From Verrucomicrobiota bacterium (lineage in GTDB: Bacteria; Verrucomicrobiota; Kiritimatiellia; SS1-B-03-39; UBA6053): a stretch of DNA of 36,272 bases. The first letter of the stretch is position 1, and each line of letters begins with the position of its first letter. Shown here one piece after another: positions 908 to 36,195 of the stretch. A program made the translations under genes and the position numbers. A model generated the notes under the pieces. The model did not search any database. It was not told the DNA's origin and was given only the letters and a program-made list of their open reading frames with translations. The stretch is from assembly GCA_020831635.1 (NCBI GenBank), contig JAFIGC010000043.1, positions 1-36,272 on the forward strand, read 5' to 3'.

Positions 908-1633
908 TCACCCTCTTGCGCCAAATTCATTCAATCTTCCACGACGCCACTTCCAATCAGGCATCACATTGGTCAACAGCCTGTAAAAGCCAGGACCGTG
1001 ATCATGCACCTGCAGGTGACACAATTCATGGACAATCACATAGTCGATACAGGGAGAAGGAGCCTTGATGAGTTCAGGATTGAGGGTGATGATCCCGGAT
1101 GGCGAACAGCTTCCCCAACGGGAACTCATCTTTCGTAATCGCACCGGAACCTTTTTGCCCCTGGCAAAGGCAAGCAGCTTTTGGTTCTTTCGAACCCGCT
1201 CAGGCAGGTAGACGGACGCTTTTTCCCTGTACCAGGCTTCCACCAACTTTTGGGTCACCTCTCGATCCTGAAGATCCGGAAGTTCCACTTCCAACCGCCC
1301 ACCCCGCAGTTTTACAGAGGGTTTTGTTCCCGTGACCCTTTTCAGGATATATTGTCGCCCCAGATAATAGACGGATTCACCGGACCGGTATCGCTTGGGA
1401 CCGGGGAGAGGATGAAATTTTGAGAATTCCTTTTGGTGCCTGACAATCCATCCCGTCCGCTTGCGGACCCGGGATTGGATTTCCTCCCGGCTCTTGCCTT
1501 CGGGCACGTTGACCACCACCCGGAGATCCGGATACACCTCGATTTTCAGACGGGACCCTGTGGACTCCCGTACTTCATAGGCAAGAGTCTGATTGCCATA
1601 AAGGATGTTTTCGATTCTCGGTTCAGCGGGCAT
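908..1633 (-). CDS. YgjP/DUF45-type zinc metallopeptidase
   Basis: This 241-residue protein belongs to the YgjP-like (DUF45, WLM-related) metallopeptidases. Visible signatures are MSSRWGSCSPSG in the middle, then IDYVIVHELCHL with the zinc-binding HELCH at residues 202-206, and a C-terminal MPDWKWRR stretch typical of the family. The frame stays open upstream to 1744, but the ATG at 1633 is preferred because it gives the normal family start and overlaps the end of hsdR by only 11 bases, which suggests translational coupling. It is the last gene of the restriction operon. Members of this family are often found next to type I hsdR genes; what they cleave there is not established. No signal peptide is seen, so it should act in the cytoplasm. 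The family is secure, the role is not. Confidence 0.9.
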   Translation of the reverse strand: MPAEPRIENILYGNQTLAYEVRESTGSRLKIEVYPDLRVVVNVPEGKSREEIQSRVRKRTGWIVRHQKEFSKFHPLPGPKRYRSGESVYYLGRQYILKRVTGTKPSVKLRGGRLEVELPDLQDREVTQKLVEAWYREKASVYLPERVRKNQKLLAFARGKKVPVRLRKMSSRWGSCSPSGIITLNPELIKAPSPCIDYVIVHELCHLQVHDHGPGFYRLLTNVMPDWKWRRGRLNEFGARG

Positions 1634-4600
1634 GGTGCTTCTTGGCAATCGAGATGCAATCTTCCACGACCCGATCCATACGTTCGAGATCGAGTTCCAT
1701 TTCGTTCTCCTCCAGAAACCGGACCAGAAACTCATCCATGTCATTCCGCATCCGGTTTTGGGCGTCCTCGTCTTTTGCCCATTGAACTTTCACATGCCGC
1801 CGGATGATCTCGTCCAGAGCGAACGACATCTCGACATACCGGTTTTTGTCCTCATCGGTTTCGGGCTCCCCGACATGAAACACATCCACCACCGCGCCAT
1901 AAAAAGCCCTGGGAGCGTCCTTGCCCCGCAAAGCGGGGGGCACGGATGCGTCGGAATGGTTCAATACCGCCTCCATTACGTCCTTCGCTTTTGAAAGATA
2001 CGCCGCCGCGGATATGCGCTGGTTCCTGTAATCCTCAATCGCCTTTTCCAGAATTTTGGAGAACTTGCGATAGAAAAACGGGTCCTCGTCCCACTTCTCG
2101 GTCAGGGTCTTTTTGGTTCGGAAGGCGATGGTGTCCGCCTTCGACGCGTCGGAATGCAGCTTTTCAAGCTCCTTCCGAAACTCCGCTTTCTCGAAAATAT
2201 TGGTGGGCGGGGTGATTTGTTCCACCTCATGGCTGGTCACATAACTGTCCACCAGCTTGCGAACCCGTTCTTCGTACACGGAAAAATCGACCGTTTCCGC
2301 ATACCGCCGTTTGACCGAAGCCCGCAATTTTAGAAAAAAGGCCAGATCTTCCGTATAGACATCGATGCGCTCCTGCGGAACATCCTGGTAGAACCTCACG
2401 GTGGAAAAGGCCGTGGCCAATCGACGGTTGAAAGCCGACAGTTTCTCATAGAACAGTTCTCGTTGGTCCTCCGGGGCAAGCGACACTTCGAAAGCCTCCT
2501 CATCATTTTTGTTCTTCACCCCCCTGAACACATCCCACAGCTCGGAATGGGCCTGGGGCAATTCCCGGATCTCCTCACGAACGTCCCGCACCGCCCCCAT
2601 CAAATCCTCTTTTTCGTAATCCGGCAGGGTCGCGTATAAATCCATGGCATCCCCCAGTTCCTGGATGATGCCGTAATAATCGACAATGAATCCGAAGTCC
2701 TTGCCCTCATACAGCCGATTCACGCGGGCGATGGCTTGAAGCAGGCTGTGGTTTTTCAAACTCCGGTCCACATACAGCACCGCGTTGCGGGGAGCGTCGA
2801 ATCCCGTCAACAGTTTGTGCACCACGATGATGATCTCCGGTTCGGTGTCGTATTTGAACGCATGAATCAGTTGCTCGTTGTAGGTCTTCTCATCCCCGTA
2901 TTTTTCCATCACTCGGGCCCAAAACCGCTGGACCTCGTCATCCGAAGCCTCATACACATCCTCATTGTCCTCCCGGGTATCCGGGGCGGAAATCAACACC
3001 TCGGAACTGACCTTCCCCAACTCGTCGAGAAATTTTTTGTACCGGATCGCGGAACGCTTGGAGTCGGCGGCCAACTGACCCTTGAACGGGGTGCCCTGCC
3101 AGTTTTTGCTAAAGTGCTCGCTAATGTCGTGGGCGATGTTCCACTGACGCGATTTGGCTTTGTAGAGCTGGTTGGTGGAGGAGAATTTCCGTTTCAGGTC
3201 CCTCACCTGGTACTCCCCCAAACCTTCGGCAACCACCCCGAATGCTTTGTCCAACGCCGCTTCATTCACCTGCTGATACGCGATCCTTCCCTCGTAGAGC
3301 AGGGGCACCACCGACTGGTCCCCGACCGCGTCCTGAATGGAATAGGTGTCGATCATGCCCCCGAATTTTCGGGCAGTGTCTTTCTCCACTCCCATCAACG
3401 GGGTGCCCGTAAAGCCGATGTAACAGGCGTTCGGCAACACGCGTTGCATCTGCGCGTGGATCTTGCCGTACTGGGTGCGGTGACTCTCGTCCACCAGCAC
3501 GAAAATATCCCGCCCCGTGATTTCCGCCTTCTTCTTCACCGAGGCCTCGAATTTGTTGATCACCGTGGTGATGATCGAGGCCTTGTGGCTCTTCAACAGG
3601 CGCAGGAGATCCGCGCCCGTCTTCGCCCGCTCCGGGGTTTTGCCCGTCCGCAAAAAGGTTTTCCAGATCTGGTCGTCCAGATCGACCCGATCCGTCACCA
3701 GCACGATGCGGGGATCGGGAATCGACGGTTCCAAGGCCAGGGCCCTCGCCAGCATCACCATGGTCAGCGATTTCCCCGATCCCTGCGTATGCCAGACCAC
3801 CCCGCCTCTGCGTCGACCCTCCTCATCGGTTTCCAGCACCCGGGCCATGGTTTTTTTCACCGCGAAATACTGCTGATAGCGGGCGATCTTTTTTTCCGAC
3901 TTTTCGAACAGCACAAAGCGGTGGGTCAGCTCCAGAAGCCGGTCCGGACGGCACAGGCTGATCAAGGCCCGGTCCTGATCGGTGACCAGACGCGGTTCCG
4001 CCGCCTGCTCCGCGTAGACGTCCAACAAATAGCGGTATTGATCCTGAAACACCGCCCGCTCGCGGTCGGCGGAGATGGGAAGGTTCACCAGCCGTTTCAT
4101 CTCCTCCTCCGGGATCTCCGATTCCCGCCAGGAGGCCCAAAACGGCGCGGGCGTTCCCGTGGTCGCGTACATGGCCTCGTTTTTCGAGAGCGCCATCAGC
4201 ACCTGGGAAAACACGAAAAGCCCCGGAATCTCCTCCCGGCGCTGGTTGCGGATGTGCTGGGAAATCGCCGACTTCATCGCGTCCTTGACGTCCGGACGCT
4301 TGCACTCGATCACCACAAAAGGAATCCCGTTCACATAACACACGATATCCGGACGCCGGGTTTTGTCAGGGGACTCCGCCCGCGACACCTCTACCTCATC
4401 GCAGACATGGTAGACGTTGGTTTTCGGATTTATCCAGTCGATGTAGTGAAGCTGCGGACTCTTTTTGATGCCCTGCACCTCCTCGTCAAAACTCTTGCCC
4501 AACACCAACAGATCGTAGATCTTTTCGTTTGTCCGCACCAGTCCGTCGAACGGCACCGACTTCAACGCATCCACTGCCGCGCGAATATTGTCCTCGCCAA

Positions 4601-4805
4601 ATGTATATTCCCGCCCCTTCACCTCAAAGCGGTTCATCTTCGCCAACTGCTTCGCCAGAACCCCCTCCAACAGCACATTCCCGTACTTTCCGCCCCGCTC
4701 AACAAACGCCTCCTGCGGACGCAGGTACGTGTACCCCAGCCGCTGCAGCACCTGGATGGCGGGGATCTGGGAAATATGGTCTTCTTGGAAGGAGGGGGTG
4801 CTCAT
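1623..4805 (-). CDS. hsdR: Type I restriction enzyme subunit R (HsdR)
   Basis: HsdR is the ATP-dependent DNA translocase and nuclease of a type I restriction complex; it joins HsdM and HsdS to cut unmodified DNA away from the target. The 1060-residue length is normal. The N-terminal nuclease domain shows PD152-153 and ECKR (167-170), the PD-(D/E)xK core. The helicase part has Walker A QGSGKS (341-346), VDESH (438-442, motif II), GFTGTPL (464-470, motif III) and a later LLTGFDAP and ARVNRLY (motifs V-VI). The C-terminal region fits the DUF3387 helical domain that docks to the methylase core. The ATG overlaps the upstream HNH-ATPase gene by four bases and the stop overlaps the YgjP gene by 11, so all three appear to be translated from one message. 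No disruption is seen. Confidence 0.97.
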   Translation of the reverse strand: MSTPSFQEDHISQIPAIQVLQRLGYTYLRPQEAFVERGGKYGNVLLEGVLAKQLAKMNRFEVKGREYTFGEDNIRAAVDALKSVPFDGLVRTNEKIYDLLVLGKSFDEEVQGIKKSPQLHYIDWINPKTNVYHVCDEVEVSRAESPDKTRRPDIVCYVNGIPFVVIECKRPDVKDAMKSAISQHIRNQRREEIPGLFVFSQVLMALSKNEAMYATTGTPAPFWASWRESEIPEEEMKRLVNLPISADRERAVFQDQYRYLLDVYAEQAAEPRLVTDQDRALISLCRPDRLLELTHRFVLFEKSEKKIARYQQYFAVKKTMARVLETDEEGRRRGGVVWHTQGSGKSLTMVMLARALALEPSIPDPRIVLVTDRVDLDDQIWKTFLRTGKTPERAKTGADLLRLLKSHKASIITTVINKFEASVKKKAEITGRDIFVLVDESHRTQYGKIHAQMQRVLPNACYIGFTGTPLMGVEKDTARKFGGMIDTYSIQDAVGDQSVVPLLYEGRIAYQQVNEAALDKAFGVVAEGLGEYQVRDLKRKFSSTNQLYKAKSRQWNIAHDISEHFSKNWQGTPFKGQLAADSKRSAIRYKKFLDELGKVSSEVLISAPDTREDNEDVYEASDDEVQRFWARVMEKYGDEKTYNEQLIHAFKYDTEPEIIIVVHKLLTGFDAPRNAVLYVDRSLKNHSLLQAIARVNRLYEGKDFGFIVDYYGIIQELGDAMDLYATLPDYEKEDLMGAVRDVREEIRELPQAHSELWDVFRGVKNKNDEEAFEVSLAPEDQRELFYEKLSAFNRRLATAFSTVRFYQDVPQERIDVYTEDLAFFLKLRASVKRRYAETVDFSVYEERVRKLVDSYVTSHEVEQITPPTNIFEKAEFRKELEKLHSDASKADTIAFRTKKTLTEKWDEDPFFYRKFSKILEKAIEDYRNQRISAAAYLSKAKDVMEAVLNHSDASVPPALRGKDAPRAFYGAVVDVFHVGEPETDEDKNRYVEMSFALDEIIRRHVKVQWAKDEDAQNRMRNDMDEFLVRFLEENEMELDLERMDRVVEDCISIAKKHHAR

Positions 4806-6070
4806 TCCGCGATCCCTCGTGTCATTGTGCCGAAGGCTCGAATTACTGAAAACTCGCCAGAGAACTTCGAACGCTCAATCCGCCATACCCGCCAGTTCGA
4901 AAAATCATGACCATTAGGCCAATTGTACATGGAAAGAATGGTTTGGTACGGGCCACTATCAGTTCCCAGTTCCTCTACCACCTGTTTCTTCCAAGAATCG
5001 TCTAAAGTATGCAGTACGCCCTGATCAATCAAGAGAATAGTCGGCGTCGTCTCACCACTGAATCGTGCCGCACGTAAAACCAAGTCTAGTAGCAACAATT
5101 GTTGTTCAGCACATGACAGCGATTGATATTCACACCAATGTCCTTTTGTGCAATTAGTCTTACCTTCCAACCTACCTGTATCATTTATCCGGATTTCATC
5201 TAGAAATCGAGGCCTCCTGCTCGCAAACGTACAGATAACCGCCCTTGTTTCTTCAGGGGAAAAGCCAATATATTCGCCCAAAGCCTCAAGGAGATCTGAG
5301 TTCATTTTTTCCTCAGGCACTTGCTCGAAGTTATCGTATTTTGGCTCTCGGAACGGGTCACGACAGTAGATAAGGTGGAAACCACTAAAAACATATGGGA
5401 AAGGCGCATCCTCAAGCTTGATCGAAACCGAATCCGAGAAGTCAAAACGCCACTTTCTTTGTGTGTTTGAATAGGTCACCATCTCAAGCCATGGTCTGTC
5501 GTTGTGAAGCAAAGGGAGCCGATCTTCAGCAAAACGATACCGCCCCAGGAGGGATAAAAAATCGCAAAGCACAGACTTCCCTGTACCATTATTTCCTAGA
5601 AGAAGAGTCCGTGGAGCGAATGAAATGTGTTGTTCTCCCAAGAAAGGACCAATGTTTGAGAAACGCGCCTCTTTAAGGATTCCGTTGCCCACCCAGACCC
5701 CGCTAACCTGCAAAGCGATTTTTTCTTCATGATCTGACTTCCACCTCCTTAATAGTTCGGGAGAATATCGCATACGATCAGAGTCTATGATTGTCGCATG
5801 ATTGCTACACAACCATATCCCATTGTCGAAAGACCTTCTGTCAAGCGTAGCCATATTGGGATCCGCACGTGGCCCACTATCTGGTGAAGCCGACACAATA
5901 TGCGCCGCTATCCCAAGCCCGGCGACACCCTGCCCATTCGCCTCAGGGCCTTTTGTTTTGTTGTTACAAGTCGGGCATGAACATTCCAACCCGGCCCGAT
6001 CAGCTAGCTTCCGCTTCACAGAAGGTGCGAATTCATCCCTTGCCGATTTCGATTTATTCTTTGCTGCCAT
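4802..6070 (-). CDS. HNH-like domain fused to ABC/SMC-type ATPase
   Basis: This 422-residue fusion is not a standard hsd gene. Residues 20-115 resemble HNH nucleases with a zinc knuckle: C30-x-C32-x2-C35, AHI at 56-58, then DNGIWLCSNH (82-91) and a YSPELLRRWK tail. From about 130 an ATPase begins, with Walker A GNNGTGKS (159-166), a signature-like SCAEQQ (319-324) and Walker B ILLIDQ (345-350). The usual catalytic Glu after the Walker B Asp is Gln here, which in other ABC ATPases blocks or slows hydrolysis. The middle is short, with no long coiled coil, unlike SMC or Rad50. A strong ribosome site (GGAGGT, 6078-6083) precedes the start, and the gene ends four bases inside hsdR. It could be a nucleotide-gated nuclease working with the restriction complex. 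Septu-like systems also combine ATPase and HNH, but as two genes, so no name is assigned. Confidence 0.8.
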   Translation of the reverse strand: MAAKNKSKSARDEFAPSVKRKLADRAGLECSCPTCNNKTKGPEANGQGVAGLGIAAHIVSASPDSGPRADPNMATLDRRSFDNGIWLCSNHATIIDSDRMRYSPELLRRWKSDHEEKIALQVSGVWVGNGILKEARFSNIGPFLGEQHISFAPRTLLLGNNGTGKSVLCDFLSLLGRYRFAEDRLPLLHNDRPWLEMVTYSNTQRKWRFDFSDSVSIKLEDAPFPYVFSGFHLIYCRDPFREPKYDNFEQVPEEKMNSDLLEALGEYIGFSPEETRAVICTFASRRPRFLDEIRINDTGRLEGKTNCTKGHWCEYQSLSCAEQQLLLLDLVLRAARFSGETTPTILLIDQGVLHTLDDSWKKQVVEELGTDSGPYQTILSMYNWPNGHDFSNWRVWRIERSKFSGEFSVIRAFGTMTRGIAE

Positions 6071-6162: not shown

Positions 6163-7347
6163 TTAGTATCGATTGGATTTTCGTGTTCCATCTGGATTGT
6201 AGCCTTCCGATCCGGGATAACCACAGGCATTCCAAATTTGATCAAAAAGAGGTTTCAACACCTGGTCCGCTAATCTCTCTTCAGAATCGACTAAGATTTC
6301 CCGCGTCAGCAAGTGATCCTGATCAATAGGATGGCTCCGGTCCCCTTCGCATCCATTACCGACAAACATAGCGTATCCACGCACATTCAAGAGAGACAAA
6401 CTGACAGCATAGGGTGGAGAGCACTGCAAAACCGCCAATAGTTTTGCAATTTGTTCATAATATTGAATCATCATATTTTCCCATAAAATATTCATGATAT
6501 ACCCACGTCCATTCTTGCTGTATCGAGGATCGAGATAATCCGGATGGAGGAATTTCGCATTGACCACTTCAAAGAAACCATTCCGATAAACCTGGGTGTA
6601 ACCCAGTGTTTTATCCTGGGAGTCGATTCGCTCGTTCCGAATACCGTCGAAATTGAATTCATAAAAAACATCATGCCTGGACAGCTTCACTAGCTTGTCA
6701 TGATCCACTTGATAATTGGATATAGCACCTTGAAGCATAAGCACGTGCAAGACGATAAGTGGATCTCCATACATAGGCCGTGGCGCATCGCCTGAAATCA
6801 GCCGACTGATCCGATCCAGCCGAAAAGTCTTCAACCTCTCGCCCATTGCCTCATTGTCCACAAACGCCGAACGCAACTCCTGCACGTCCAGATCGTATTT
6901 TCCATTGGAATTCCTGCCGCAGAACCGCGTTAGTCCTTTATGAAAGACCATGTGAGGTGCTGTGAAGCTGCGGGGCACCCGCAAAATTAGGGCATGGTTG
7001 CCATTTTTCAGGTCCACAACCCGCGGACGATGCCCTTTCAACCTGGGTTGGACAAAATCACGCAGCAGGTTTTCGATAGTACCCAGTGAAGAATCAGCAA
7101 TGAAGTTTTTCAACCCCACCAACTCTTTCGCGATCCCAGCATCCTCACGCATTCCATAGAGCAAGTCACCGCCATCCGTGTTGGCCATTGCCGTAACATC
7201 GCATAGAAACTCACGCTTCTGCTCATCTGTGACCAGACAAAAGTCCCGCTTGTAATCGAGATGTTTACTCTCCGGCACCTGGTCGTTGATCAGGCGTAAA
7301 AGGTCACTTTCTGAAATCGATATTATTGGAATATGCTGTAGGGACAT
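6163..7347 (-). CDS. AlbA_2/Schlafen-type nucleic-acid-binding protein
   Basis: The N-terminal third matches the AlbA_2 (Schlafen AlbA) domain: a conserved ESKHLDYKRDF segment (residues 26-35) and AMANTDGGDLLYG (53-65), the family hallmark. Proteins with this domain bind nucleic acid, and some cleave RNA or act in phage defence. The remaining 250 residues are helical-looking, have no domain I recognise, and are rich in aromatic residues. There is no signal peptide or membrane segment. It lies nine bases after the HEPN gene and 92 bases before the HNH-ATPase, inside the type I operon. Base composition is more AT-rich than hsdR or hsdM, suggesting later acquisition. The ribosome site is weak, so translation may depend on the upstream gene. 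The domain call is firm; the function is inferred only from context. Confidence 0.8.
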   Translation of the reverse strand: MSLQHIPIISISESDLLRLINDQVPESKHLDYKRDFCLVTDEQKREFLCDVTAMANTDGGDLLYGMREDAGIAKELVGLKNFIADSSLGTIENLLRDFVQPRLKGHRPRVVDLKNGNHALILRVPRSFTAPHMVFHKGLTRFCGRNSNGKYDLDVQELRSAFVDNEAMGERLKTFRLDRISRLISGDAPRPMYGDPLIVLHVLMLQGAISNYQVDHDKLVKLSRHDVFYEFNFDGIRNERIDSQDKTLGYTQVYRNGFFEVVNAKFLHPDYLDPRYSKNGRGYIMNILWENMMIQYYEQIAKLLAVLQCSPPYAVSLSLLNVRGYAMFVGNGCEGDRSHPIDQDHLLTREILVDSEERLADQVLKPLFDQIWNACGYPGSEGYNPDGTRKSNRY

Positions 7348-7356
7348 AGTATTATC

Positions 7357-7860
7357 TCAACTTTTAGTTTTTTCGTTCAAGAAGAACTGATTTTTAACTT
7401 CCAGCATAAACTCATTTATAAAAGACCCAAAACGTTGAATTGAAATTGATGCACTGAAATTGTCACCACCATTTTTTGTTTGGTCGTAAAATGAAATATT
7501 ATTCTGTTCTACTTTAAATCGGGCATGCGCTAGGGAATTGCGAATTCTGCTGCAAAACCTTTTTGGGTCCGTTGTATTGGTGCCTTCAGTTACAGTAAAG
7601 GATGATAGATCGATTTCACTAAAATTGATTGCATTGAACTCGGCTTGCTGTGGAAAAACGAAAAGCGGGTATGCCGCCATAATCAATGAGCCGATGTTTA
7701 GTGGGTCAATTTTATATTTTTCTCGAAACTCAACCAATAGTTCCCCAATAGTCTTTTTTTCATAAGTTGGGTCTAAAGCCCATTGACACCAGATCAATGA
7801 TATATTACTTTGCACTACGATATTCCAATCTGTTTTTATGTTTAGATCATGTTTTGGCAT
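7357..7860 (-). CDS. HEPN-domain protein, candidate RNase
   Basis: This 167-residue, mainly helical protein carries RNSLAH (residues 107-112), the R-x4-6-H motif that forms the active site of HEPN ribonucleases when two subunits dimerise. The context around it (SRIRNSLAHARF, followed by a strand with FYDQ) resembles the pEK499_p136-type HEPN family. HEPN proteins in defence loci usually cut RNA to stop growth of an infected cell. A good ribosome site (AGGAG, six bases before ATG) and a 13-base gap after hsdS place it firmly in the operon. The gene is clearly AT-rich compared with hsdS and hsdR, a sign of separate origin. No antitoxin-like partner directly overlaps it; the AlbA_2 protein nine bases downstream is the closest candidate. 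The motif is visible; activity is inferred. Confidence 0.75.
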   Translation of the reverse strand: MPKHDLNIKTDWNIVVQSNISLIWCQWALDPTYEKKTIGELLVEFREKYKIDPLNIGSLIMAAYPLFVFPQQAEFNAINFSEIDLSSFTVTEGTNTTDPKRFCSRIRNSLAHARFKVEQNNISFYDQTKNGGDNFSASISIQRFGSFINEFMLEVKNQFFLNEKTKS

Positions 7861-7873
7861 TATAACTCCTGTT

Positions 7874-9169
7874 TTACGTTCTTATTTGGCCCGTCAGCAA
7901 CTTCTGCATCAGGCCCTTTTTTTGGTTCTTTAACTCTACCAACTTTTTACTTTCAAGCTTGATCTCGCTGTCAGCATCTTGCAAGGCATCGATGATGGCA
8001 TCCTGTTCCGCCAGCGAGGGTATGGGAACTTGAATTTTGGAAAAATCTTTCCATCGCAGGCTCCCCCGTCGGTCGACAGAGGAGTTAGTGGACGATTCAA
8101 AAATGTGCCGATACAAGTCGGTTTTGAACAGGTACATCAAAAAGTCAGGCCGAACGTGTTTTCCACATTCGAAAACAACATAAATGGGACTCACCAAGCC
8201 TTCATCATAACTATCCTGCAACCCGATGGATCCTTCTTCGACATGATTCGAGGGGAACCCAAGCCAATTCCTTCGGACGATCTTGTAGTTCGATAGATCC
8301 GCGCTGTGTACCTTTCGCCCAAAATAAGTCTCCGAATCCACAAAACCGGCGTATTTTGTACAGGACAAAACGCGGATCGATTTTACCGCTTTGTTTCGAA
8401 CGCTTCGCTCTTTGGCAACCTCTCCCATCTTCGGGCACCACCAGTCGGCAGGGAGAGTGAAAATCCGATATCCAACTGTTTTTTTCGTTTCAAACCCCGG
8501 CAACCGCCGCTTTCCCGTCAGCAACTGCTGCATCAGCCCACGTTTCCGCTCCTCTTTCTCGCGAATCAGCTCTTCCTGCAAGCGGATGGCTTCATCCCAA
8601 ACGGTGAGGATTTCCGCGATTTTCTTTTGCTCGGCGATAGAAGGGAGAGGAATTTCTAGATGCAGAAAACTACCTTTTGTAATCTTCACCATCGTTCCAC
8701 TTGTCCCGTTCCCTATGGACGAGATTTTCCGTCTCATCATGGGTAGCCACAGGTAGTATGACAGCCATTTGATGTGAAGATCTTTACCGTTTCTAGGACT
8801 CAATTCCCAAATCAAATCAGAGAGGTACAGATTTTCATGTGTTTTTCGGACATAACAGACAGCCCCAACAAGATCCGGAGTGTTGGAACGGCTAATCAAA
8901 AGAGTGCCTGCCTTTACATGCGTCGATAAAATATTTTGCGTGGAAGTTTTGGATGCTTTGTTCTCGCGGGGATCGAAAACCCCGTTTTTGATGCAACTCA
9001 GCTTCAAGACCCCAACCTCTTCTTTACCTGCAACACGGTCCTCACAAATGGGGCTTTGGCCGGAAACCGGCTGATTGCAAATATTCTTTATCCTCGTCAT
9101 TCGCCACTCCACCGGAATGCGTCCGGCGGGGGGATCTTTGAATAAGGATTGTTGGATAGAGTTTGCCAT
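7874..9169 (-). CDS. hsdS: Type I restriction specificity subunit (HsdS)
   Basis: HsdS gives the type I enzyme its DNA target. The 431-residue protein has the classic two-part layout: one target recognition domain up to about residue 170, a conserved helical spacer that begins PLPSIAEQKKIAEIL and ends RGLMQQLLTGKRRLP, a second recognition domain, and a C-terminal spacer (PSLAEQDAIIDAL to LMQKLLTG). The repeated AEQ...LLTG spacers set the distance between the two half-sites. The frame is open far upstream, but that part is the shadow of the preceding gene; the ATG at 9169 shares one base with its TAA stop (TAATG), a typical coupling signal. The target sequence cannot be read from the protein. 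Confidence 0.95.
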   Translation of the reverse strand: MANSIQQSLFKDPPAGRIPVEWRMTRIKNICNQPVSGQSPICEDRVAGKEEVGVLKLSCIKNGVFDPRENKASKTSTQNILSTHVKAGTLLISRSNTPDLVGAVCYVRKTHENLYLSDLIWELSPRNGKDLHIKWLSYYLWLPMMRRKISSIGNGTSGTMVKITKGSFLHLEIPLPSIAEQKKIAEILTVWDEAIRLQEELIREKEERKRGLMQQLLTGKRRLPGFETKKTVGYRIFTLPADWWCPKMGEVAKERSVRNKAVKSIRVLSCTKYAGFVDSETYFGRKVHSADLSNYKIVRRNWLGFPSNHVEEGSIGLQDSYDEGLVSPIYVVFECGKHVRPDFLMYLFKTDLYRHIFESSTNSSVDRRGSLRWKDFSKIQVPIPSLAEQDAIIDALQDADSEIKLESKKLVELKNQKKGLMQKLLTGQIRT

Positions 9170-10200
9170 TAAGGTTGCCCCTCCATCAACCGATCCAGGA
9201 TCTGATCGACTTGTTGCTGAAACACGGGGATCAACTCTTCGCCGGAGGGCAATCGGTTCCCCCCGATGCGAAGCTCCGGCGCGACAAGATTGAGCCCCTG
9301 CAAGGATTTGCTTTCCAGAAAACGGCGAAGCCGTGACGCTTGTTGTCGAGGTGATGCCTCGTCCCGGCATGCCTCCTCCAACATCACATGCAGTTGGCAC
9401 AATGCCGGCATCACCGCAACCCAGTCCACTCCCTTGGGAATTCCTGGCCATCCAACCAACAGGGACCACCATTTTTCCCGGTCTCGAAGTGAATAGAGTA
9501 CCCGCCTCCCATCCGACTGAAGATCCACCCAACCGGATTCCGACATTTCCGACAACGCCAGAGTCACCGTTGGGGCACCGTATCCGCATGCCCGAGCCAT
9601 GGCCCGGGGGGAGCCGGAAGAATGTAGCAGAAGATAGTTCAGTAATTCAGCCCGCGCGTTCAAGCCCGTGAATGCGCGCAAGCGTAGCAACAGGGTTTCC
9701 GCGCCCACACCCGGGAAGGGTCCGCAAATCTTTCGGTTTTCATATGTGTTTCGTAGAAAGCCCCATTGTTGAAAAACCGGATCCAGCGTCCTCCCCGTTG
9801 GCATGGGCTCCGCATCCGGCCCCAGAAACAGAGGCATCGGCTGAATTTCGTCACTCCCCCAGGTTTGAATCGCCTTAAATTTTGATGTCAGGGTGGGGTC
9901 GCCTCGCTCCACCAAGCCGAGAAAAAGCTTGTACGGTACCACCTTGGTTTCCCGAAGCAACCGTTTGGCCCTGGACACGTTTATCCATCGTCCGTTCCGC
10001 TCCACCCATTCCACCATGCCGTCAAATAGCCGTTGATCCCGGCGTCCAACTTCACAGGTGAACATGATCAACGCCTCGGGATCGATTGGGGAATGTTTCC
10101 ATTTCGCGCCATAGCCTTGCAGGCCCAGCGCCACCCATTGCCGCCAGGCCAGATCAAGCATCCGTTTCCGGAATTCCAATTTATAATCGTTTAGCTGCAT
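9169..10200 (-). CDS. Winged-helix-like partner of the nucleotidyltransferase
   Basis: I do not recognise this 343-residue protein by name. Around residues 185-240 it has a probable winged helix-turn-helix: LLNYLLLHSSGSPRAMARA, then a second helix containing APTVTLALSEMSESGWV and a wing with GRRVLYSLRDREKWW, much like ArsR/MarR-type reading heads. The N-terminal half is rich in Trp and Arg. It follows the nucleotidyltransferase gene with a 20-base overlap, an arrangement like AbiE-type or other nucleotidyltransferase toxin-antitoxin pairs, where a winged-helix protein is the antitoxin and repressor. The ATG at 10200 was chosen; a TTG at 10212 is also possible and would add four residues. It shares one base with hsdS. 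A role as DNA-binding control protein for the operon is an inference. Confidence 0.6.
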   Translation of the reverse strand: MQLNDYKLEFRKRMLDLAWRQWVALGLQGYGAKWKHSPIDPEALIMFTCEVGRRDQRLFDGMVEWVERNGRWINVSRAKRLLRETKVVPYKLFLGLVERGDPTLTSKFKAIQTWGSDEIQPMPLFLGPDAEPMPTGRTLDPVFQQWGFLRNTYENRKICGPFPGVGAETLLLRLRAFTGLNARAELLNYLLLHSSGSPRAMARACGYGAPTVTLALSEMSESGWVDLQSDGRRVLYSLRDREKWWSLLVGWPGIPKGVDWVAVMPALCQLHVMLEEACRDEASPRQQASRLRRFLESKSLQGLNLVAPELRIGGNRLPSGEELIPVFQQQVDQILDRLMEGQP

Positions 10201-10799
10201 CGGGGTATCCAATTTGTTGCAACATGCTTTTTGTCATCATAAAAAATCCATTGGAGGGATCGTGGCTCCTTGCCCAATGCACTGCGGCGACCAGTTCTTC
10301 GGTGGTTGGTTTCAAGGCATGAAGATCGTCCACATGATACCCACCGCGGTCCACGGCGGCATACACTTTGAAAAAAATCTGGTCGGTCCTGCCAATGAAA
10401 AATACGGACAGCCGATCTCCAAACTCCCGGCGGGTCAGCCGCTCCCCCGAATCCCTCGGGCAGGCCGCCCTGAAACAACCCCATCTGAGGATCCTTGCTA
10501 GGGCCGTTGTTGAGCCAATCCTCCATCAGATCCTCGTCCGCCGCGACCTCACGCACAGCTTGCAGGAGATCCTCCGGTAAAGGCTGAGGACTCGACAACC
10601 TATCGTTTTCCATCAAGGCCACCACGTCCACGTCTTTGGTGGTACGCGGAACCGCCCCCGTCAGAATCAGCGCGGAGCCACCGCATACCACAAGTCCGAA
10701 CGGACCGGCATTGTTCTCCTTCAAACGGAAGGCCAAAGCATCAAGAGCCCTTTCAAGGTCCTCTTCGCCCAATGGCTTATGTTCATTTATTTCGTTCAT
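10181..10799 (-). pseudogene. DUF6036-like nucleotidyltransferase, frameshifted
   Basis: The first 117 residues read well as a DUF6036-type nucleotidyltransferase: VVCGGSALILTG holds the GGS of the catalytic loop (40-42) and TTKDVDVVAL the paired aspartates (D56, D58). After GLPEGFG the frame is wrong. Removing one base from the five-G run (plus-strand C run 10444-10448) restores ERLTRREFGDRLSVFFIG, then the family's FKVYAAVDRGG and HDPSNGF segments, ending at 10181. The span is 3n+1 bases, as expected for one inserted base. The restored product would have about 205 residues. As read, the product is 202 residues with an unrelated tail. It could be real inactivation, phase switching or a sequencing error. 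It lies 21 bases after hsdM. Related enzymes act as toxins that modify tRNA or proteins. Confidence 0.8.
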
Positions 10800-10820: not shown

Positions 10821-12335
10821 CTACTTGGTGGCGTGTATCAAGCCCAAATCCCGTAAATATCCCTTCATCGTCTCCCGAACATCCGCCAGTTCACCCTCCA
10901 GCCCCTCGATGCGTAGCTGGACGGCGGGGATGTCGACTTCCTCTTCCTCCTCGAAGGTGTCCACGTAGCGGGGAATGTTGAGGTTGAATTCATTCTCCTC
11001 GATCTCGGCGAAGGTGACGCGGGCGGCGTACTTGTCCACGGTTTCAAAGGTTTGGCAGGTTCTCACAATGCGGTCAATATCCTCAGAACGAAGCAAGTTC
11101 TGGTTGGTGCCCTTTTCGTACTGCTTGCCGGCGTCCACAAAGAGAACGTCGCGGGTGGTTTTGGCGCGGTTGAAGAGCAGGATGGCGGCGGGGATGCCGG
11201 TCCCGAAGAACAGGTTGGCGGGCAAGCCGATCACGCATTCCAACAAATTCTCCTCGATCATCGCCTTGCGGATGCGCCCCTCGGCGGCACCTCGGAACAG
11301 GACCCCGTGGGGAACAATCACCCCCACCCGTCCGGTGTCGTTGACGGAAGTTTCCACCATGTGGGAGATAAACGCGAAGTCCCCCTTGCTTTTCGGGGGC
11401 ACTCCCCGGTAAAAGCGGTTGTGGGGGTCCGAGGCGGCTTCGTCCGCACCCCACTTGTCCAGGGAAAAGGGCGGATTGGCGACGACGATATCGAATTTCA
11501 TCAAGCTGTCGTTTACCAGCAGCTTGGGGTTGTTGAGGGTGTCGCCCCACTTGATGTCGGCGGAGTCCTTGCCGTGCAGAAACATGTTCATGCGGCAAAG
11601 GGCCCAGGTGCTCCCGTTGCTTTCCTGACCATAGAGGGCGTAATCATCCGGGTCGGGCACTTCGTTGGCCACGCGAATGAGCAGGGAGCCGGAACCGCAG
11701 GCGGGATCACAGATTTTCGCCCCTTTGTTGGGCTTCAACAACTTCGCCAACAAGGTGGCCACCCCTTTGGGGGTGTAAAATTCCCCGCCTTTTTTGCCGG
11801 AATCGCTCGCAAAGCGGGAGATCAGGTACTCGTACACGTCTCCGATCACATCCGCGTCGCCCACCACCGAGGGACGCAGGTCCAAGCGCGGGTCGGCAAA
11901 GTCCTCCAGCAAATTTTTCAACCGTTTGTTTCTATCCTTGGTTTCCCCCAGATTGGATTCCGAGTTAAAGCGAATGTTGCGAAATACCCCCTCCAGCTTG
12001 GCCTTGTTGGCCTCTTCAATGCCTTCCAGGGCCACGTCAATTTCCTCGCCGATGTTGTCATCCTTGCGTTTGGCAAACAGGCTGTAAAAATCGCTGCCCT
12101 CGGGCAAGACAAAGCGCTGACGGCTCATATACCGCTCCACCAACTCGGGTTTCCCGGGATATTTGGCCTTGGCCTCCTCCAGCTTTTCTTTCCAGAGATC
12201 GCTAAGGTATTTTACAAACAGCATCACGAGAATGTAGTTCTTGTATTCGGAAGGGTCCACCACGCCCCGAAAGGTGTCGCAGGCCTTCCAGACCACTTCG
12301 TTGATCTGATTTTGGTCGATTTTAGACGCTTTCAT
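10821..12335 (-). CDS. hsdM: Type I DNA adenine methyltransferase (HsdM)
   Basis: HsdM transfers a methyl group from S-adenosylmethionine to the N6 of adenine, protecting the host's own sites and forming the core of the restriction complex. The 504-residue protein starts with the helical HsdM N-terminal domain (residues 10-140). GGEFYTPKGVATLLAKLL (183-200) leads into the SAM-binding motif DPACGSGSLL (210-219), and the catalytic motif IV is NPPF (287-290). A C-terminal helical tail with EEEEEVDIPAV would contact HsdS. The start overlaps the half-HsdS gene by 14 bases, with GGAG about 11 bases upstream. All expected motifs are present and no lesion is seen, so the methylase should be active. 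Confidence 0.97.
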   Translation of the reverse strand: MKASKIDQNQINEVVWKACDTFRGVVDPSEYKNYILVMLFVKYLSDLWKEKLEEAKAKYPGKPELVERYMSRQRFVLPEGSDFYSLFAKRKDDNIGEEIDVALEGIEEANKAKLEGVFRNIRFNSESNLGETKDRNKRLKNLLEDFADPRLDLRPSVVGDADVIGDVYEYLISRFASDSGKKGGEFYTPKGVATLLAKLLKPNKGAKICDPACGSGSLLIRVANEVPDPDDYALYGQESNGSTWALCRMNMFLHGKDSADIKWGDTLNNPKLLVNDSLMKFDIVVANPPFSLDKWGADEAASDPHNRFYRGVPPKSKGDFAFISHMVETSVNDTGRVGVIVPHGVLFRGAAEGRIRKAMIEENLLECVIGLPANLFFGTGIPAAILLFNRAKTTRDVLFVDAGKQYEKGTNQNLLRSEDIDRIVRTCQTFETVDKYAARVTFAEIEENEFNLNIPRYVDTFEEEEEVDIPAVQLRIEGLEGELADVRETMKGYLRDLGLIHATK

Positions 12336-12963
12336 AAGATTCGGACTCCAATTGGGTTCTCAAAAATTCCTTCTGTAACGCCTGATTGCGCTTCTCCGTT
12401 AGCTCTGTCAACTCCCGCAACAAACGGATTTCCAGCAAAGAGGCCTCGTGCATTTCTAAAAGCCGTGTTTGTGTGGACAGAGAGGGGATCTCCACCTCCA
12501 GCCGTTTCAGCATGGCAATGCTCACATGGGGGATGGTGGACCCCGCCGACATGGCCTCCAGCCGACGCCGCACCCCCTCCGTGTTTAGCAACCAGGCCAG
12601 ATATGCGGGAAGCACCCGCCGCGCATCCCGCACCCTCACCACCAGAAACTGCGATCCCGCCACCACAAACTCCGGTTGACCCTCGAACACCCCCGCCCGG
12701 TGCTGCGACCCCCGGGCCGCAAACAACACCTCGCCCGCTTTCAGAAAATGGGAGTCCTTAAACCCTTCGTCAGGCACCCGGACCAGGTCACGGGTGTCCA
12801 AGCGCCCTTCATCCGTCAAATCCCGAATCTGTACCACCGGCACGCCCTCGTCCACCTCCTGCAAAGCGGAACGGAACGAATATCCGCTTCGGATTTCCGC
12901 CACATCGCCGAACGGGGTTGGCCTCCGTTTGTCGGGTTTATTATGATTTTGCTTCACATTCAT
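12322..12963 (-). CDS. Half-size HsdS-like protein with one recognition domain
   Basis: This 213-residue protein looks like one half of an HsdS subunit: a single target recognition domain (GDVAEIRSGYSFRSAL, then VVQIRDL, FLKAGEVLFAARGS, VVAGSQFLVVRV and the SAGSTIPHVSIAMLKRLEV segment) followed by one helical spacer (PSLSTQTRLLEM to LQKEFL). Single-domain S proteins can dimerise to recognise palindromic-type targets. Here it is the first gene of the operon and a full HsdS is encoded later, so the cell may have two specificity proteins for one HsdM. The frame extends upstream to a TTG at 13035, but the ATG at 12963 fits the domain better. The ribosome site is weak. It could also be a decoy or a regulator of complex assembly. 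Confidence 0.8.
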   Translation of the reverse strand: MNVKQNHNKPDKRRPTPFGDVAEIRSGYSFRSALQEVDEGVPVVQIRDLTDEGRLDTRDLVRVPDEGFKDSHFLKAGEVLFAARGSQHRAGVFEGQPEFVVAGSQFLVVRVRDARRVLPAYLAWLLNTEGVRRRLEAMSAGSTIPHVSIAMLKRLEVEIPSLSTQTRLLEMHEASLLEIRLLRELTELTEKRNQALQKEFLRTQLESESYESV

Positions 12964-13068
12964 CAGGAGTTCTGCGTATAATACGGTTAGTCGACGGTTC
13001 GGTTTTCCGATCCATAAAGCCCAGACTGGGGTCAAACCCGTTTGGGTTTTCGAATCCAGGTTTCTTCA

Positions 13069-17693: not shown

Positions 17694-18259
17694 GTTGTCA
17701 TTCCAAGCTTTGTCATGAATCCAATATCCGTCGACTCAACACCATGTGGCCGCAGCCACAGTTTTGATCGCGCCATGCGCAACTGGCCCGCATGAATAGG
17801 GGCCTCCGTTGTAAACCGATCCCGATGTGGAAGAATGCCCGCCGGGGGGCGGCGCGGAGGAAGGTTTATTAAAAGCGTCGTCCAGAAAACATTGTCGGGT
17901 TCTATTGTTTTTCCAGCTTCAGCGATATGGCGCAAGGGGGTTTGCAACCGTTCCATGTCAGCGATCCGCAAGATCGCATCAGGAGTGCTTTCCCCACTGA
18001 TCAACTGCGCGGCGACTCGGATAAATGTCGGATTGTATTTGGATTCATTGGAGAGAAGGGCGGCAGCAATTTCCAGATTACTGATGCAATCAGGACCCGG
18101 ATCAATCACGTGCGGACCTTGCTCCTGATAATGATGGCAACCTCTAAGCGTGGCCAATTGAACCCAATGGGCCTCCGTCGGGAATCCATGGCGCATGAGT
18201 TTTCTCCGTACGGGGGAGAGGATCCGGGTCTCCTGCAAAGCTTCACCCAATGTTTTCAT
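17690..18259 (-). CDS. Unknown protein coupled to a nucleotidyltransferase
   Basis: No family is recognised in this 189-residue protein. It is mostly helical with conserved-looking stretches TEAHWVQLATLRGCHHY, LEIAAALLSNESKYNP and LISGESTPDAILRIADMERL; no signal peptide or membrane helix is seen. Its ATG overlaps the stop of the nucleotidyltransferase-like gene by four bases and its stop overlaps the sulfotransferase start by four. This tight pairing with a nucleotidyltransferase resembles two-gene systems in which one member restrains or is modified by the other. An alternative is that it simply assists in a biosynthetic cluster. Function cannot be inferred from the sequence alone. Confidence 0.7.
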   Translation of the reverse strand: MKTLGEALQETRILSPVRRKLMRHGFPTEAHWVQLATLRGCHHYQEQGPHVIDPGPDCISNLEIAAALLSNESKYNPTFIRVAAQLISGESTPDAILRIADMERLQTPLRHIAEAGKTIEPDNVFWTTLLINLPPRRPPAGILPHRDRFTTEAPIHAGQLRMARSKLWLRPHGVESTDIGFMTKLGMTT

Positions 18260-18804
18260 CCCAAAACCTCGCTACGAAACCATTCCTGGTTATGATTGAA
18301 GGCTTCCCGGATTTCCGGAACATCCGGCACAATCGCGGAAGCAAAAATATCGGCCCAGTTTTTCTGTTGGGGCACATAAACCGCAAGTTTGCGAATGTCG
18401 GCCCGATCCTGCGGGTCAATTCGCATCATTTTCGTAAGAATCAAATCTTCTATGGCAGGACGGCTTAGGTTAAGATTTCTCAATCCGGGAAGGCGGATCG
18501 GCTTACAATGGTTGCGCCAGTCTTTTGAAAGGATCACCTGCTCCTCCAAAAAAAGATGGGTGAGGTACAACCCTTCGTCGCAAAGCGTGCTGTTCGTCTT
18601 CTCCAGACCGTTCCAAAAATCAGAATTCATATCAAAGGTCTCCACCATGAGGGTTGGAATGATCACATCGATATCCATCGTGCTGGACCAATCCTCATAG
18701 TCTGGAAAGGCAAGGGAGAGGGCACCGCGTCCATACAGGATCAAGTCAACGACTCCATGTAAATGTCGGTCCAATTCCCGCAGAATTTTTTCAGGATTAC
18801 TCAT
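18256..18804 (-). CDS. Nucleotidyltransferase-fold protein, DUF6036-like
   Basis: The 182-residue protein shows the start of a minimal nucleotidyltransferase fold: DLILYGRGALSLAF, then STMDIDVIIP with the two catalytic-type aspartates in DID, and a later LSRPAIEDLILTKMMRIDPQDRADI, a segment common in DUF6036 and related families where Lys and Asp line the pocket. The GGS loop is GRG here, so activity is uncertain. The frame is open to 19044, but the extension runs through an intergenic repeat, so the ATG at 18804 (MSNPEKIL) is used. It is the second protein of this fold in the window; the first lies in the hsd operon. It overlaps the following unknown gene by four bases. Confidence 0.72.
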   Translation of the reverse strand: MSNPEKILRELDRHLHGVVDLILYGRGALSLAFPDYEDWSSTMDIDVIIPTLMVETFDMNSDFWNGLEKTNSTLCDEGLYLTHLFLEEQVILSKDWRNHCKPIRLPGLRNLNLSRPAIEDLILTKMMRIDPQDRADIRKLAVYVPQQKNWADIFASAIVPDVPEIREAFNHNQEWFRSEVLG

Positions 18805-18859
18805 AAAATCAGAATACCATTTATCAATCCACCTGCAAGATGTTCTTGCCAGGATATAC

Positions 18860-19030
18860 GTTTCCCGGGGGTTTGCCGCCGGGCTGACGCGTGCGATCCC
18901 GTTGGTTGGGGTCAATAAGAAATGGCATCCCCTTCCTGAATTTACATCCCAACGGGATGCCACTCGCCAGACCGGGGTGAAACCCCGGGGATTCGCATCC
19001 CCAGACAATCCCGCATCCCAACGGGATGCC
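18860..19030. repeat. Intergenic repeat family 1, copy C with extra hairpins
   Basis: The CCCGGGGG...GCCGCCGGGCTGA core and a GTGCGATCCCGTTGG unit match copy A, with four extra bases in the ATCCC/GGGGT unit. GGCATCCC (18924-18931) and GGGATGCC (18954-18961) are again 22 bases apart. Further right, CCGGGG/CCCCGG and GCATCCC-AAC-GGGATGC (19013-19029) form more hairpins, close to the lipoprotein stop codon, where they could end or protect its transcript. Confidence 0.7.
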
Positions 19031-19040
19031 TCTCCTCCCT

Positions 19041-19730
19041 TCACATCTCCGGATTGACTTCTTCCCTTGCAGCCTCAAGTTTCTCCATGCTCAACTTATT
19101 CAGAATAAATTCCTCATGGAAATCCAAAGGAACCCAAAAGTCCACAAACCAAAATTTATCAACATAATCATAGTTTTCATGGTATAAATGATATACCGCA
19201 ACAATATTTTTTTCATTAAATTTATCAAATATTAGAATACGGGACCGAGGGAACAGCCCGCTGGCACGGATATTATCTCTTTTTTGTGGAAAAAAATCTT
19301 TCCTCGAAAGGTATCGGTATTGGTTATTAATCCTATCGTAACCCATTATTTCAAACGCATAATAACTTAACCCCTTCAAGGACGTGACATGACGAAGATC
19401 TTCTTCAGGAATTCTTTCAATTCTAAAAGCACCAGTATAATACTCACCATCTTCAAAATAAATACGTGTCATCCATTTTCCAGAAATAATTTTTGCGACA
19501 GAATAGCTGTCATCTCTTTGCAAGGCTTTATCAGGTCTATTTTCACTATTCATCAAAATTTCATGTGCGCCACCCTCCATGAGCGTGGCGTTTCCTTCAA
19601 AGTATTCAAGAGCCAATTCCTTGTCTACAATCCATATCCCATTCACATCAGGCACGGTATTTTTATTTGCGCATGACACAAATAAGCCGAAAACAAACGG
19701 TAAATAAAATATGATTTTGATGTATTTCAT
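19041..19730 (-). CDS. Predicted lipoprotein of unknown function
   Basis: The 229-residue product starts MKYIKIIFYLPFVFGLFVSC, a short basic end, a hydrophobic stretch and a lipobox-like FVSC with Cys20 as the probable lipid-attached residue. The mature part is rich in Tyr, Phe and charged residues, without a domain I know; VNGIWIVDKELALEY after the signal recalls small lipoproteins that begin with a 'G.W..d' strand. The frame runs on upstream to 19919, but that section is repeat D read in frame; the ATG at 19730 is correct for a lipoprotein. The gene is strongly AT-rich compared with all neighbours and sits alone between repeat C and repeat D, so it was probably acquired separately. Confidence 0.75.
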   Translation of the reverse strand: MKYIKIIFYLPFVFGLFVSCANKNTVPDVNGIWIVDKELALEYFEGNATLMEGGAHEILMNSENRPDKALQRDDSYSVAKIISGKWMTRIYFEDGEYYTGAFRIERIPEEDLRHVTSLKGLSYYAFEIMGYDRINNQYRYLSRKDFFPQKRDNIRASGLFPRSRILIFDKFNEKNIVAVYHLYHENYDYVDKFWFVDFWVPLDFHEEFILNKLSMEKLEAAREEVNPEM

Positions 19731-20150
19731 AAGTGATCTGTAGACAGTGTAAGCGAAGGTATTGGTTTGTGTCGAGGCAAAAACGACGCAAATAAGCCAT
19801 GGGGGCGGCGCATCAAAAACTATGGGGGCGGTGCATCTTGCGCCGGAATCTTCAGCACAAAGAAAGCTCATCCATCCAATCTGGCTGCCACACGGAGGAC
19901 GCGCACGCTTTTCTTGCATTTGAGCCTTGGGAAATGGTGTGAAAAATCAGGCAGTGGGAAAAGCGGTAGCTTCGTTGCACTCGCTACGCGCACTCCAAAG
20001 CGGCTTCGCCGCGCTCTTTACTCCTAAACCCATAAAGTCTTGAAGCTCGACGGAGGGATCCAAGCGAGTGGAGCCATTGACTCACGCCCGAAACATTCTT
20101 TTTCCCCTCTGCGCTCTCCGCGTCCTCCTGTTCAAAAAGGTTATCAGTGG
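19731..20150. other. Gene-free stretch dominated by repeat D
   Basis: The first 300 bases are repeat D copy 2. The remaining bases up to the epimerase stop hold no gene or clear hairpin. A frame of 86 codons crosses the repeat, but the corresponding frame in copy 1 diverges after the 37-base length difference. Confidence 0.6.
19741..20033 (+). repeat. Long direct repeat D, copy 2 (right edge of island)
   Basis: It aligns with 484-813 from TAGACAG to CTCC(G/T)AAACCCAT in the same orientation, lacking the 37-base insert. The AT-rich lipoprotein lies on its left and the housekeeping block on its right. Recombination between the copies would delete about 19.2 kb including the entire restriction operon. 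Confidence 0.85.
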
Positions 20151-34872: not shown

Positions 34873-36195
34873 ATGTTTGACGTACGTGAAAAACCCAAGA
34901 TGGTGGAACGCGCCTTTTTGGTTGGGGTTTCCCTGAAAGGAGAATCCACCGCCGAGGCGGAGGATTTACTCAGGGAACTGCATGAACTGGTCAATACCCT
35001 CGGCATTGGCATCGTGGGCAGCGCCCTCGTGGAAGTCCGAGAATGGAAGGCCCGTCTGCTCATGGGCGGCGGCAAGGCCGAGGAAGTGCTCGAACAGGTC
35101 AAAGAACTGAATGCGGACTGCGTGGTCTTTGACAACGAGCTGTCACCCGCCCAACAACGCAACTGGGAAGCGTTCACCAACCTGACCGTCATCGACCGCC
35201 AAGAGGTGATCCTCGATATTTTCGGGGCCCGGGCCCAAACCAAGGAGGCCAAACTCCAGGTGGAACTGGCCCGCATGGAATACAATCTCCCTCGCTTGAA
35301 AAGGGCTTGGGGACACTTGGGCCGCCAAGGGGGTGGCGGAGGCGGGGGCGGCGGTGGCGGAGGCGGGGGCGGGGGCGGCGGTGGCGGTGCCCATCGCGGC
35401 GAAGGCGAACAACAAATCGAAATGGACCGCCGCATGGTTCGGGAGCGCATCGCGTCCCTGAAACAAGAACTCGTCCTCGTTCGCTCCCATCGCGCCACCC
35501 AACGCAAGGAACGCAGCCGCATTCCCCTGCCCCACGCCGCCATTGTCGGGTATACCAACGCCGGAAAAAGCTCCCTGCTGCGCACCCTCACCGGTTCGGA
35601 CGTGTACGTCGCCAACAAACTGTTCGCCACCCTTGACACCACCACCCGCCGTATCGAATTGCCCAATGGCCGACCGCTGCTCATGACCGATACGGTCGGG
35701 TTCGTTCGTCGCCTGCCACACCGCCTGGTGGAATCTTTCAAAGCCACACTCGAAGAGGCGGTGCTGTCCGATTTCCTCGTGCATGTCCTCGACATCAACG
35801 CCCCCGAAGTCGAAGCCTTCCACCACACCACCCTCGAAGTGCTCAAAGAACTGGGCGCGGATCAAAAACGCATTATCACCGTTTTTAATAAAATCGACCT
35901 GCTGGAAGACGACACCAAAACCGCCGCCGTCCGGGCCCACCACCCCGACGCCGTTTTCGTCTCCGCTCACACCGGCGAAGGTCTCGACACCCTCCGGGAC
36001 CGGATGGCCGATCTGCTCGCCGATCAAATCGCCCACATGCGCTTGAAAATTCCGCACGAACGCGCCGACATCGTGGCCAGACTCCATCAACACGGACACG
36101 TCAACGAATGCCGTTACGAGGACGACGCCGTCTATCTTGACACCACCCTCCCCAAGCGTCTCGCCGAAGAAGTCCGGGAATGGTCCGTGGGGTGA
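34873..36195 (+). CDS. hflX: GTPase HflX with expanded polyglycine
   Basis: HflX is a ribosome-associated GTPase that splits stalled 70S ribosomes under stress. The 440-residue length is near normal. The N-terminal domain has VGSALVEVREWKARLLMGGG and VVFDNELSPAQQRNWE (the usual nucleotide-binding part). The GTPase has G1 GYTNAGKS (226-233), G3 DTVGFVRRLP, G4 NKIDLL and G5-like SAHTGEG. The usual glycine-rich loop before RGPGETQ is replaced by 20 consecutive glycines (153-172), then AHRGEGEQQIEMDRR. No disruption is visible and the frame is kept. The start ATG is 13 codons before a MVERAFLVG stretch. It is divergent from the YlbF gene. Confidence 0.95.
   Translation: MFDVREKPKMVERAFLVGVSLKGESTAEAEDLLRELHELVNTLGIGIVGSALVEVREWKARLLMGGGKAEEVLEQVKELNADCVVFDNELSPAQQRNWEAFTNLTVIDRQEVILDIFGARAQTKEAKLQVELARMEYNLPRLKRAWGHLGRQGGGGGGGGGGGGGGGGGGGGAHRGEGEQQIEMDRRMVRERIASLKQELVLVRSHRATQRKERSRIPLPHAAIVGYTNAGKSSLLRTLTGSDVYVANKLFATLDTTTRRIELPNGRPLLMTDTVGFVRRLPHRLVESFKATLEEAVLSDFLVHVLDINAPEVEAFHHTTLEVLKELGADQKRIITVFNKIDLLEDDTKTAAVRAHHPDAVFVSAHTGEGLDTLRDRMADLLADQIAHMRLKIPHERADIVARLHQHGHVNECRYEDDAVYLDTTLPKRLAEEVREWSVG
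35329..35388 (+). repeat. GGN microsatellite coding 20 glycines in hflX
   Basis: Twenty consecutive GGN codons (GGC, GGG, GGT and GGA mixed, with duplicated blocks such as GGC GGC GGT GGC) lie in the glycine-rich loop of HflX. The mix of codons suggests an old expansion with local duplications. Length changes by multiples of three would keep the frame. Confidence 0.9.

Follow-up and report, generated by a model that had tools for sequence, protein, structure and literature searches.

A candidate defense protein joining an HNH nuclease to an ABC-type ATPase head without the Walker B glutamate in a Type I restriction-modification operon

Why would an HNH nuclease encoded within a Type I restriction-modification (RM) operon be fused to an ABC-type ATPase head that carries Gln where the catalytic Glu is expected after the Walker B Asp? 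This question is raised by a gene at positions 4802 to 6070 (minus strand) of the window, the whole stretch of 36,272 nucleotides from a Verrucomicrobiota bacterium that was analyzed here. A sequence-only reading of this DNA had proposed that the natural Gln may make the protein an ATP-level switch that releases the nuclease.

The HNH-ATPase gene and its operon

The HNH-ABC ATPase fusion gene, defined by its ORF and translation and by full-length relatives, encodes 422 amino acids (aa). Its ATG is preceded by a Shine-Dalgarno (SD)-like sequence, GGTGGAGG, and its stop codon shares an ATGA overlap with the start of hsdR. In transcription order, the operon begins with a short hsdS-like gene with one specificity domain (12322 to 13035; Methylase_S, E = 2e-9), which overlaps the start of hsdM (10821 to 12335; TIGR00497 over cut-off; N6_Mtase, E = 6e-105), followed by a DUF6036 remnant, a PaaX-like gene, and an hsdS gene with two target-recognition domains (7874 to 9589; Methylase_S twice; PADLOC Specificity_I, E = 1e-81), the true start of which is probably near ORF residue 141. 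It continues with a pEK499_p136-like HEPN gene (7357 to 7860; PF18736, E = 5e-8, over cut-off), a Schlafen AlbA_2 domain gene directly upstream of the HNH-ATPase gene (6163 to 7347; PF04326, E = 7e-8, over cut-off), the HNH-ATPase gene itself, the Type I restriction subunit gene hsdR (1623 to 4805; TIGR00348, 489 bits; Pfam HSDR_N and SWI2_SNF2), and a YgjP-like metallopeptidase gene, all on the minus strand. The location of the HNH-ATPase gene inside an RM operon suggests that its product is probably a phage defense nuclease.

Several other features of the window were observed. Three unrelated accessory candidates (AlbA_2, HEPN, and HNH-ATPase) are stacked between hsdS and hsdR. The DUF6036 nucleotidyltransferase (10181 to 10799, minus strand) consists of two overlapping ORFs and looks frameshifted; the PaaX-like gene (9169 to 10212) adjoins it, and a second DUF6036 gene lies at 18256 to 19044. 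A 258-bp direct repeat (481 to 738 and 19738 to 19996, 93% identical) flanks about 19.2 kb that includes the restriction island. The repeat pair was considered as the boundary of a mobile element, but because shorter pieces of it are scattered over the genome (62 matches), it is no proof of one. The product of an HflX-like gene (34873 to 36195, plus strand), an HflX GTPase, has a run of about 24 glycines in its middle part, encoded by a GGN tandem repeat (35332 to 35387).

Domains of the fusion protein

The HNH domain spans residues 10 to 122 (5705 to 6043, minus strand) and contains C30, C35, H57, N83, C88, and H91. It shows a weak match with Pfam HNH_2 (E = 0.027, under cut-off) and clear matches with the PADLOC HNH effectors PDC-M68A (E = 6e-23) and SAVED_HNH (E = 8e-16). 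The solved HNH chain 9om4 in the PDB also matches (E = 1e-10), as do the Cap5 entries 8ysq and 7rwk. C30, C35, H57, N83, and C88 are unchanged in all 23 aligned sequences; at position 91, 19 of these have His and the other 4 have Cys. With its His-Asn-His active site and zinc ligands, the domain that had been described as an HNH-like zinc domain is, as judged from its sequence, an intact HNH endonuclease domain of the Cap5 type.

The remainder of the protein, from about residue 130 onward, forms an ABC head of the SMC/Rad50/RecF type. The Walker A motif, GNNGTGKS (residues 159 to 166; 5573 to 5596, minus strand), has GK[ST] in 23/23 sequences. The signature-like LSCAE (residues 318 to 322; 5105 to 5119, minus strand) aligns with the LSGGE of SMC1A and Rad50, so that the SCAEQQ noted earlier starts at residue 319 within an LSxxE signature; position 322 is Glu in 18/23 sequences, and position 319 is Ser in 14/23. 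The Walker B motif, ILLIDQ (residues 345 to 350; 5021 to 5038, minus strand), has an acid at D349 that is D or E in all sequences and ends in Gln350, encoded by CAG at 5021 to 5023. The D-loop, L356-D357 (5000 to 5005, minus strand), is followed by the switch (H-loop) region QTILSMYNW (residues 376 to 384; 4919 to 4945, minus strand), in which Q376 is invariant in the alignment and the switch position, occupied by His in 7/23 sequences, is Tyr382. The motifs named in the sequence-only reading were thus all recovered where it had placed them, and they occur in the order expected on an ABC fold.

Structural comparisons agree with this assignment. A profile of 21 sequences matches SMC1A, Rad50, RecF, AriA, and the retron PtuA in the PDB, and the profile alignment to solved structures pairs Q350 with the catalytic Glu of SMC1A, a position that reads DQ in the engineered EQ structure entries. 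An AlphaFold2 model of the monomer, built from a shallow alignment of 18 sequences, has a mean pLDDT of 80 and a pTM of 0.66. It matches the heads of cohesin, SMC, and Rad50 proteins in the PDB at E values of about 1e-11, which argues that the ATPase motifs, including ILLIDQ, are not chance occurrences, and it also matches the PtuA ATPases of Septu and retron I-A at about 1e-10 to 2e-10. No long coiled-coil helices are present in the model of the 422-aa protein. Two residues associated with hydrolysis are replaced, the catalytic Glu by Gln350 and the switch His by Tyr382.

Relatives, loss of the Walker B glutamate, and gene neighbors

A total of 22 full-length relatives, 21 to 29% identical to the window protein, were found on plasmids, on viral contigs, and in genomes of several phyla (designated here by locus, such as L016). 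A scan of genome contigs with the window protein alone returned no relatives, which were recovered with a five-sequence alignment; a viral scan with L050 as the query gave no matches. Searches of the class and phylum to which the window belongs recovered no full-length fusion besides the window copy (1 of 388 genomes in the last of them), the other matches being HNH only or ATPase only, and this distribution points to horizontal gain of the gene. The resulting alignment comprises 23 divergent sequences, including the window protein; L056 is almost the same sequence as L052, and contamination may explain its Bacillus label; for the actinobacterial members, alignment around the signature is poor. 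In the maximum-likelihood tree, the sequences formed two deep clades of 9 and 14 members (support, 100/99), with the window protein in the larger one.

The residue at position 350 is highly variable, with Glu in seven sequences, Ser in seven, His in two, and Gln, Asn, Lys, Tyr, Trp, Leu, and Thr in one each. Glu is present in 7/9 members of the sister clade and in 0/14 members of the window's clade, where Gln, His, Ser, Thr, Asn, Tyr, or Lys takes its place; the sister clade thereby supplies half of what the sequence-only reading had named as its refutation. The substitute tracks lineage, being His in L016 and L026, Asn and Tyr in two Bacteroidota, and Ser or Thr in an eight-member, mainly proteobacterial group. 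Among the 23 sequences, Gln occurs in the window protein alone, and the idea of a conserved, selected E-to-Q trap is rejected on this count. What stands of the earlier claim is that the Walker B Glu is absent: in the alignment of the 14 sequences of the window's clade, no conserved acid was found at +1 or +2 past the Walker B acid. On this evidence, loss of Glu is a trait of the clade, and the window Gln is one among many substitutes.

Other changes accompany this loss. Relative to the sister clade, the window's clade has an extra residue between Walker B and the D-loop, which moves the D-loop of the window protein one position farther away from Walker B. The switch His is absent from most of the window's clade, with L066 and L077 retaining it; it is present in 5/7 Glu members (five actinobacterial sequences have both residues) versus 2/16 others, a difference that is descriptive only because the sequences are related (Fisher P = 0.011). 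The window's clade retains Walker A together with the Walker B acid, the signature Glu, and the D-loop, and both clades conserve the HNH residues as well as Walker A. For pairs with unsaturated synonymous sites, the dN/dS values were 0.069 (L052/L056) and 0.142 (L016/L026) for the Glu-less ATPase part and 0.081 and 0.216, respectively, for the HNH part, so in these two pairs, constraint on the Glu-less ATPase is no weaker than that on the HNH part. This purifying selection suggests that the Glu-less ATPase is maintained and probably hydrolysis deficient rather than decaying. With no Glu at Walker B +1, no conserved substitute acid, and the ATP-binding motifs and HNH site maintained by purifying selection, the window head is likely to bind ATP and to hydrolyze it poorly.

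Gene neighbors were profiled for some loci with no background set, and their support for a defense context is not statistical. In L058 and L077, the HNH-ATPase gene follows GajA-GajB, with which it shares the strand, at a distance of about 100 and 165 bases, respectively. In L045, a TIR effector-type gene precedes it by 30 bases, and a PDC-S26 nuclease gene is downstream; a PDC-M29A ATPase gene is upstream in L047, a Type IIG RM enzyme is encoded downstream in L026, Type II RM genes are nearby in L016, and the L019 gene adjoins a Swt1-type HEPN gene. No hsd genes were recognized beside the relatives with annotated or profiled neighbors. The arrangement in L058 (5281 to 9263) and L077 (3952 to 9251), from two distant genomes, may represent a three-gene Gabija variant. 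In addition, a conserved, uncharacterized gene containing a GEAKGSH stretch lies downstream in one clade, in L020 (7223 to 8371), L052 (9230 to 10408), and L056 (9230 to 10408); it is 75% identical between L020 and L052, in which it has no Pfam or PADLOC match. In L024 (4998 to 5780; Pseudoalteromonas), a similar HNH domain is joined to a different P-loop NTPase, and a 707-aa protein overlaps downstream.

Known defense designs, a proposed mechanism, and its rivals

The two-domain protein resembles several known systems and differs from each of them. PtuAB of Septu and retron I-A also pairs an ABC ATPase with an HNH nuclease, and the nuclease is reportedly inhibited when PtuA binds ATP. PtuAB consists of two proteins, whereas the window gene is a single fusion, its HNH domain is of the Cap5/SAVED-type effector group, and its PADLOC match with PtuA is confined to residues 133 to 172 (E = 2e-4). 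CBASS Cap5 (HNH-SAVED) has an N-terminal HNH domain of the same type, but its C-terminal part is SAVED rather than an ABC head; the SAVED_HNH matches stop at residue 122, and no CD-NTase or other cyclic-nucleotide synthase was recognized among the operon proteins scanned. The Cap5 HNH is switched on by a dimer-to-tetramer transition (PMC12804361). Among the library models, the PADLOC candidate PDC-M68A matches the HNH part best (residues 14 to 122), but only over positions 5 to 112 of its 253; the match ends after the HNH domain, so the ABC head has no match in the rest of that model. In PARIS, an ABC ATPase keeps a nuclease inactive, sometimes within one fused polypeptide, and AriB, the nuclease, stays sequestered by the AriA hexamer until a trigger arrives (PMC12409363). 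An AriA model matches 15 of the 23 HNH-ATPase members, but the PARIS nuclease is Toprim rather than HNH, and the fusion is a different one.

In Lamassu, LmuB has an SMC/Rad50-like head that governs a nuclease and generally carries a natural Glu-to-Gln change after the Walker B Asp, for which low or no hydrolysis has been put forward (PMC10586767). LmuB differs in its length of about 650 aa, its coiled coil, and its frequent zinc hook, and the Lamassu effector is a separate protein (Cap4 in Vibrio rather than HNH), whereas here a single 422-aa chain includes the fused HNH domain. No Lamassu model was among the matches listed, and the shared Walker B change is a common property rather than a sign of kinship. 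TrlF family ATPases likewise have a natural Gln at the equivalent position (IIIDQPEDDLDN in L142, above the family cut-off; LLIDQPEDNLDN in the TrlF-type L145, under it), but they are far longer (about 900 aa) and have no HNH domain. No published fusion of HNH to an ABC head was found in a literature search, the 2020 survey of ABC ATPases being outside its scope. Together, the Lamassu, Septu, PARIS, Cap5, and TrlF precedents make an ATP-held nuclease plausible but also less novel.

We propose, at about an even chance of being right, that the protein works as an antiviral effector whose HNH nuclease is regulated in cis by an ABC head deficient in hydrolysis. The head would bind ATP and engage a second head in a dimer or higher assembly, and with slow or absent turnover, ATP would act as a durable clamp keeping the HNH domains separated and inactive. 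An infection-induced change, such as a fall in ATP or an encounter with DNA, a phage component, or HsdR as a partner, would open the clamp, and the freed HNH domains would come together and cut DNA. The protein would then be a module that assists or backs up the Type I RM locus without being part of the restriction enzyme itself. The Gabija, TIR, and RM neighbors of some relatives are supportive of such a defense role. Two observations count against a clamp. L066 and L077, in the same clade, keep the switch His and could have another route of hydrolysis, and the Glu of the sister clade suggests that hydrolysis is or was useful. The role of ATP could equally be reversed, with ATP required for activation rather than inhibiting the nuclease.

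Alternatively, the head may be a sensor of nucleic acids or partners in which ATP is a permanent cofactor. ATP-bound heads would then serve as a platform, and DNA ends, phage DNA structures, or a phage protein, rather than the ATP level, would trigger the HNH domain, much as has been proposed for Lamassu. This possibility is credible, if rather doubtful: Lamassu, with the same Walker B change, is the closest mechanistic precedent, the SMC/Rad50 fold acts on DNA, and constant ATP occupancy suits a head without Glu, but the 422 aa contain neither coiled coil nor zinc hook, and no DNA-binding element was identified. That the ATPase still hydrolyzes ATP slowly or with another base, as OLD/PtuA-type enzymes do, and tolerates the missing Glu seems unlikely. 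Mutants of Walker A or the Walker B Asp abolish Septu immunity, which also requires the HNH motif (PMC13096335), and the His of L066 and L077 and the paired Glu and His of the actinobacterial members point the same way; against this, the window's clade has no conserved acid near the site and has the extra residue before the D-loop, and ABC ATPases engineered with equivalent substitutions become drastically slower (PMC10586767).

It is very improbable that the protein works with HsdR, HsdM, and HsdS as part of the Type I restriction enzyme rather than as a separate effector. The ATGA overlap with hsdR and the location inside the operon fit such a role, but no hsd gene was recognized beside the relatives with annotated or profiled neighbors, which include Gabija, TIR, and HEPN genes and RM genes of other kinds, and the unrelated AlbA and HEPN genes share the same operon. 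Least credible is a decayed or mis-sequenced Glu in a failing gene. CAG differs from GAG by one base in one codon, and Gln occurs in a single sequence, but Glu is missing from all 13 other members of the clade, its loss is accompanied by the extra residue and by the absence of the switch His, and the gene has an intact ORF, an SD-like site, and the ATGA overlap; a decayed ATPase is also rejected on the dN/dS values of the relatives, which show purifying selection.

A bolder form of the proposed clamp, which we hold tentatively and think somewhat less than probable, is that these proteins constitute a rare, scattered, and undescribed one-protein family in which the HNH nuclease is locked by a head that never hydrolyzes ATP and is released irreversibly on ATP loss or opening by DNA, the lock having arisen once and then tolerated many substitutes for Glu. 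A natural Glu-to-Gln change is already known from LmuB, and the HNH-ATPase is a variation on known defense designs. Its combination of a Cap5-type HNH domain with a minimal SMC-type head in a chain of about 420 aa is simpler than Septu, PARIS, or Lamassu, and with it, restriction loci of Type I and loci linked to Gabija gain a candidate defense gene. The natural series of Glu, Gln, Ser, His, Asn, Tyr, and Lys at one site beside the same fused nuclease allows a direct test of whether the ATPase of a defense nuclease needs ATP hydrolysis or binding alone.
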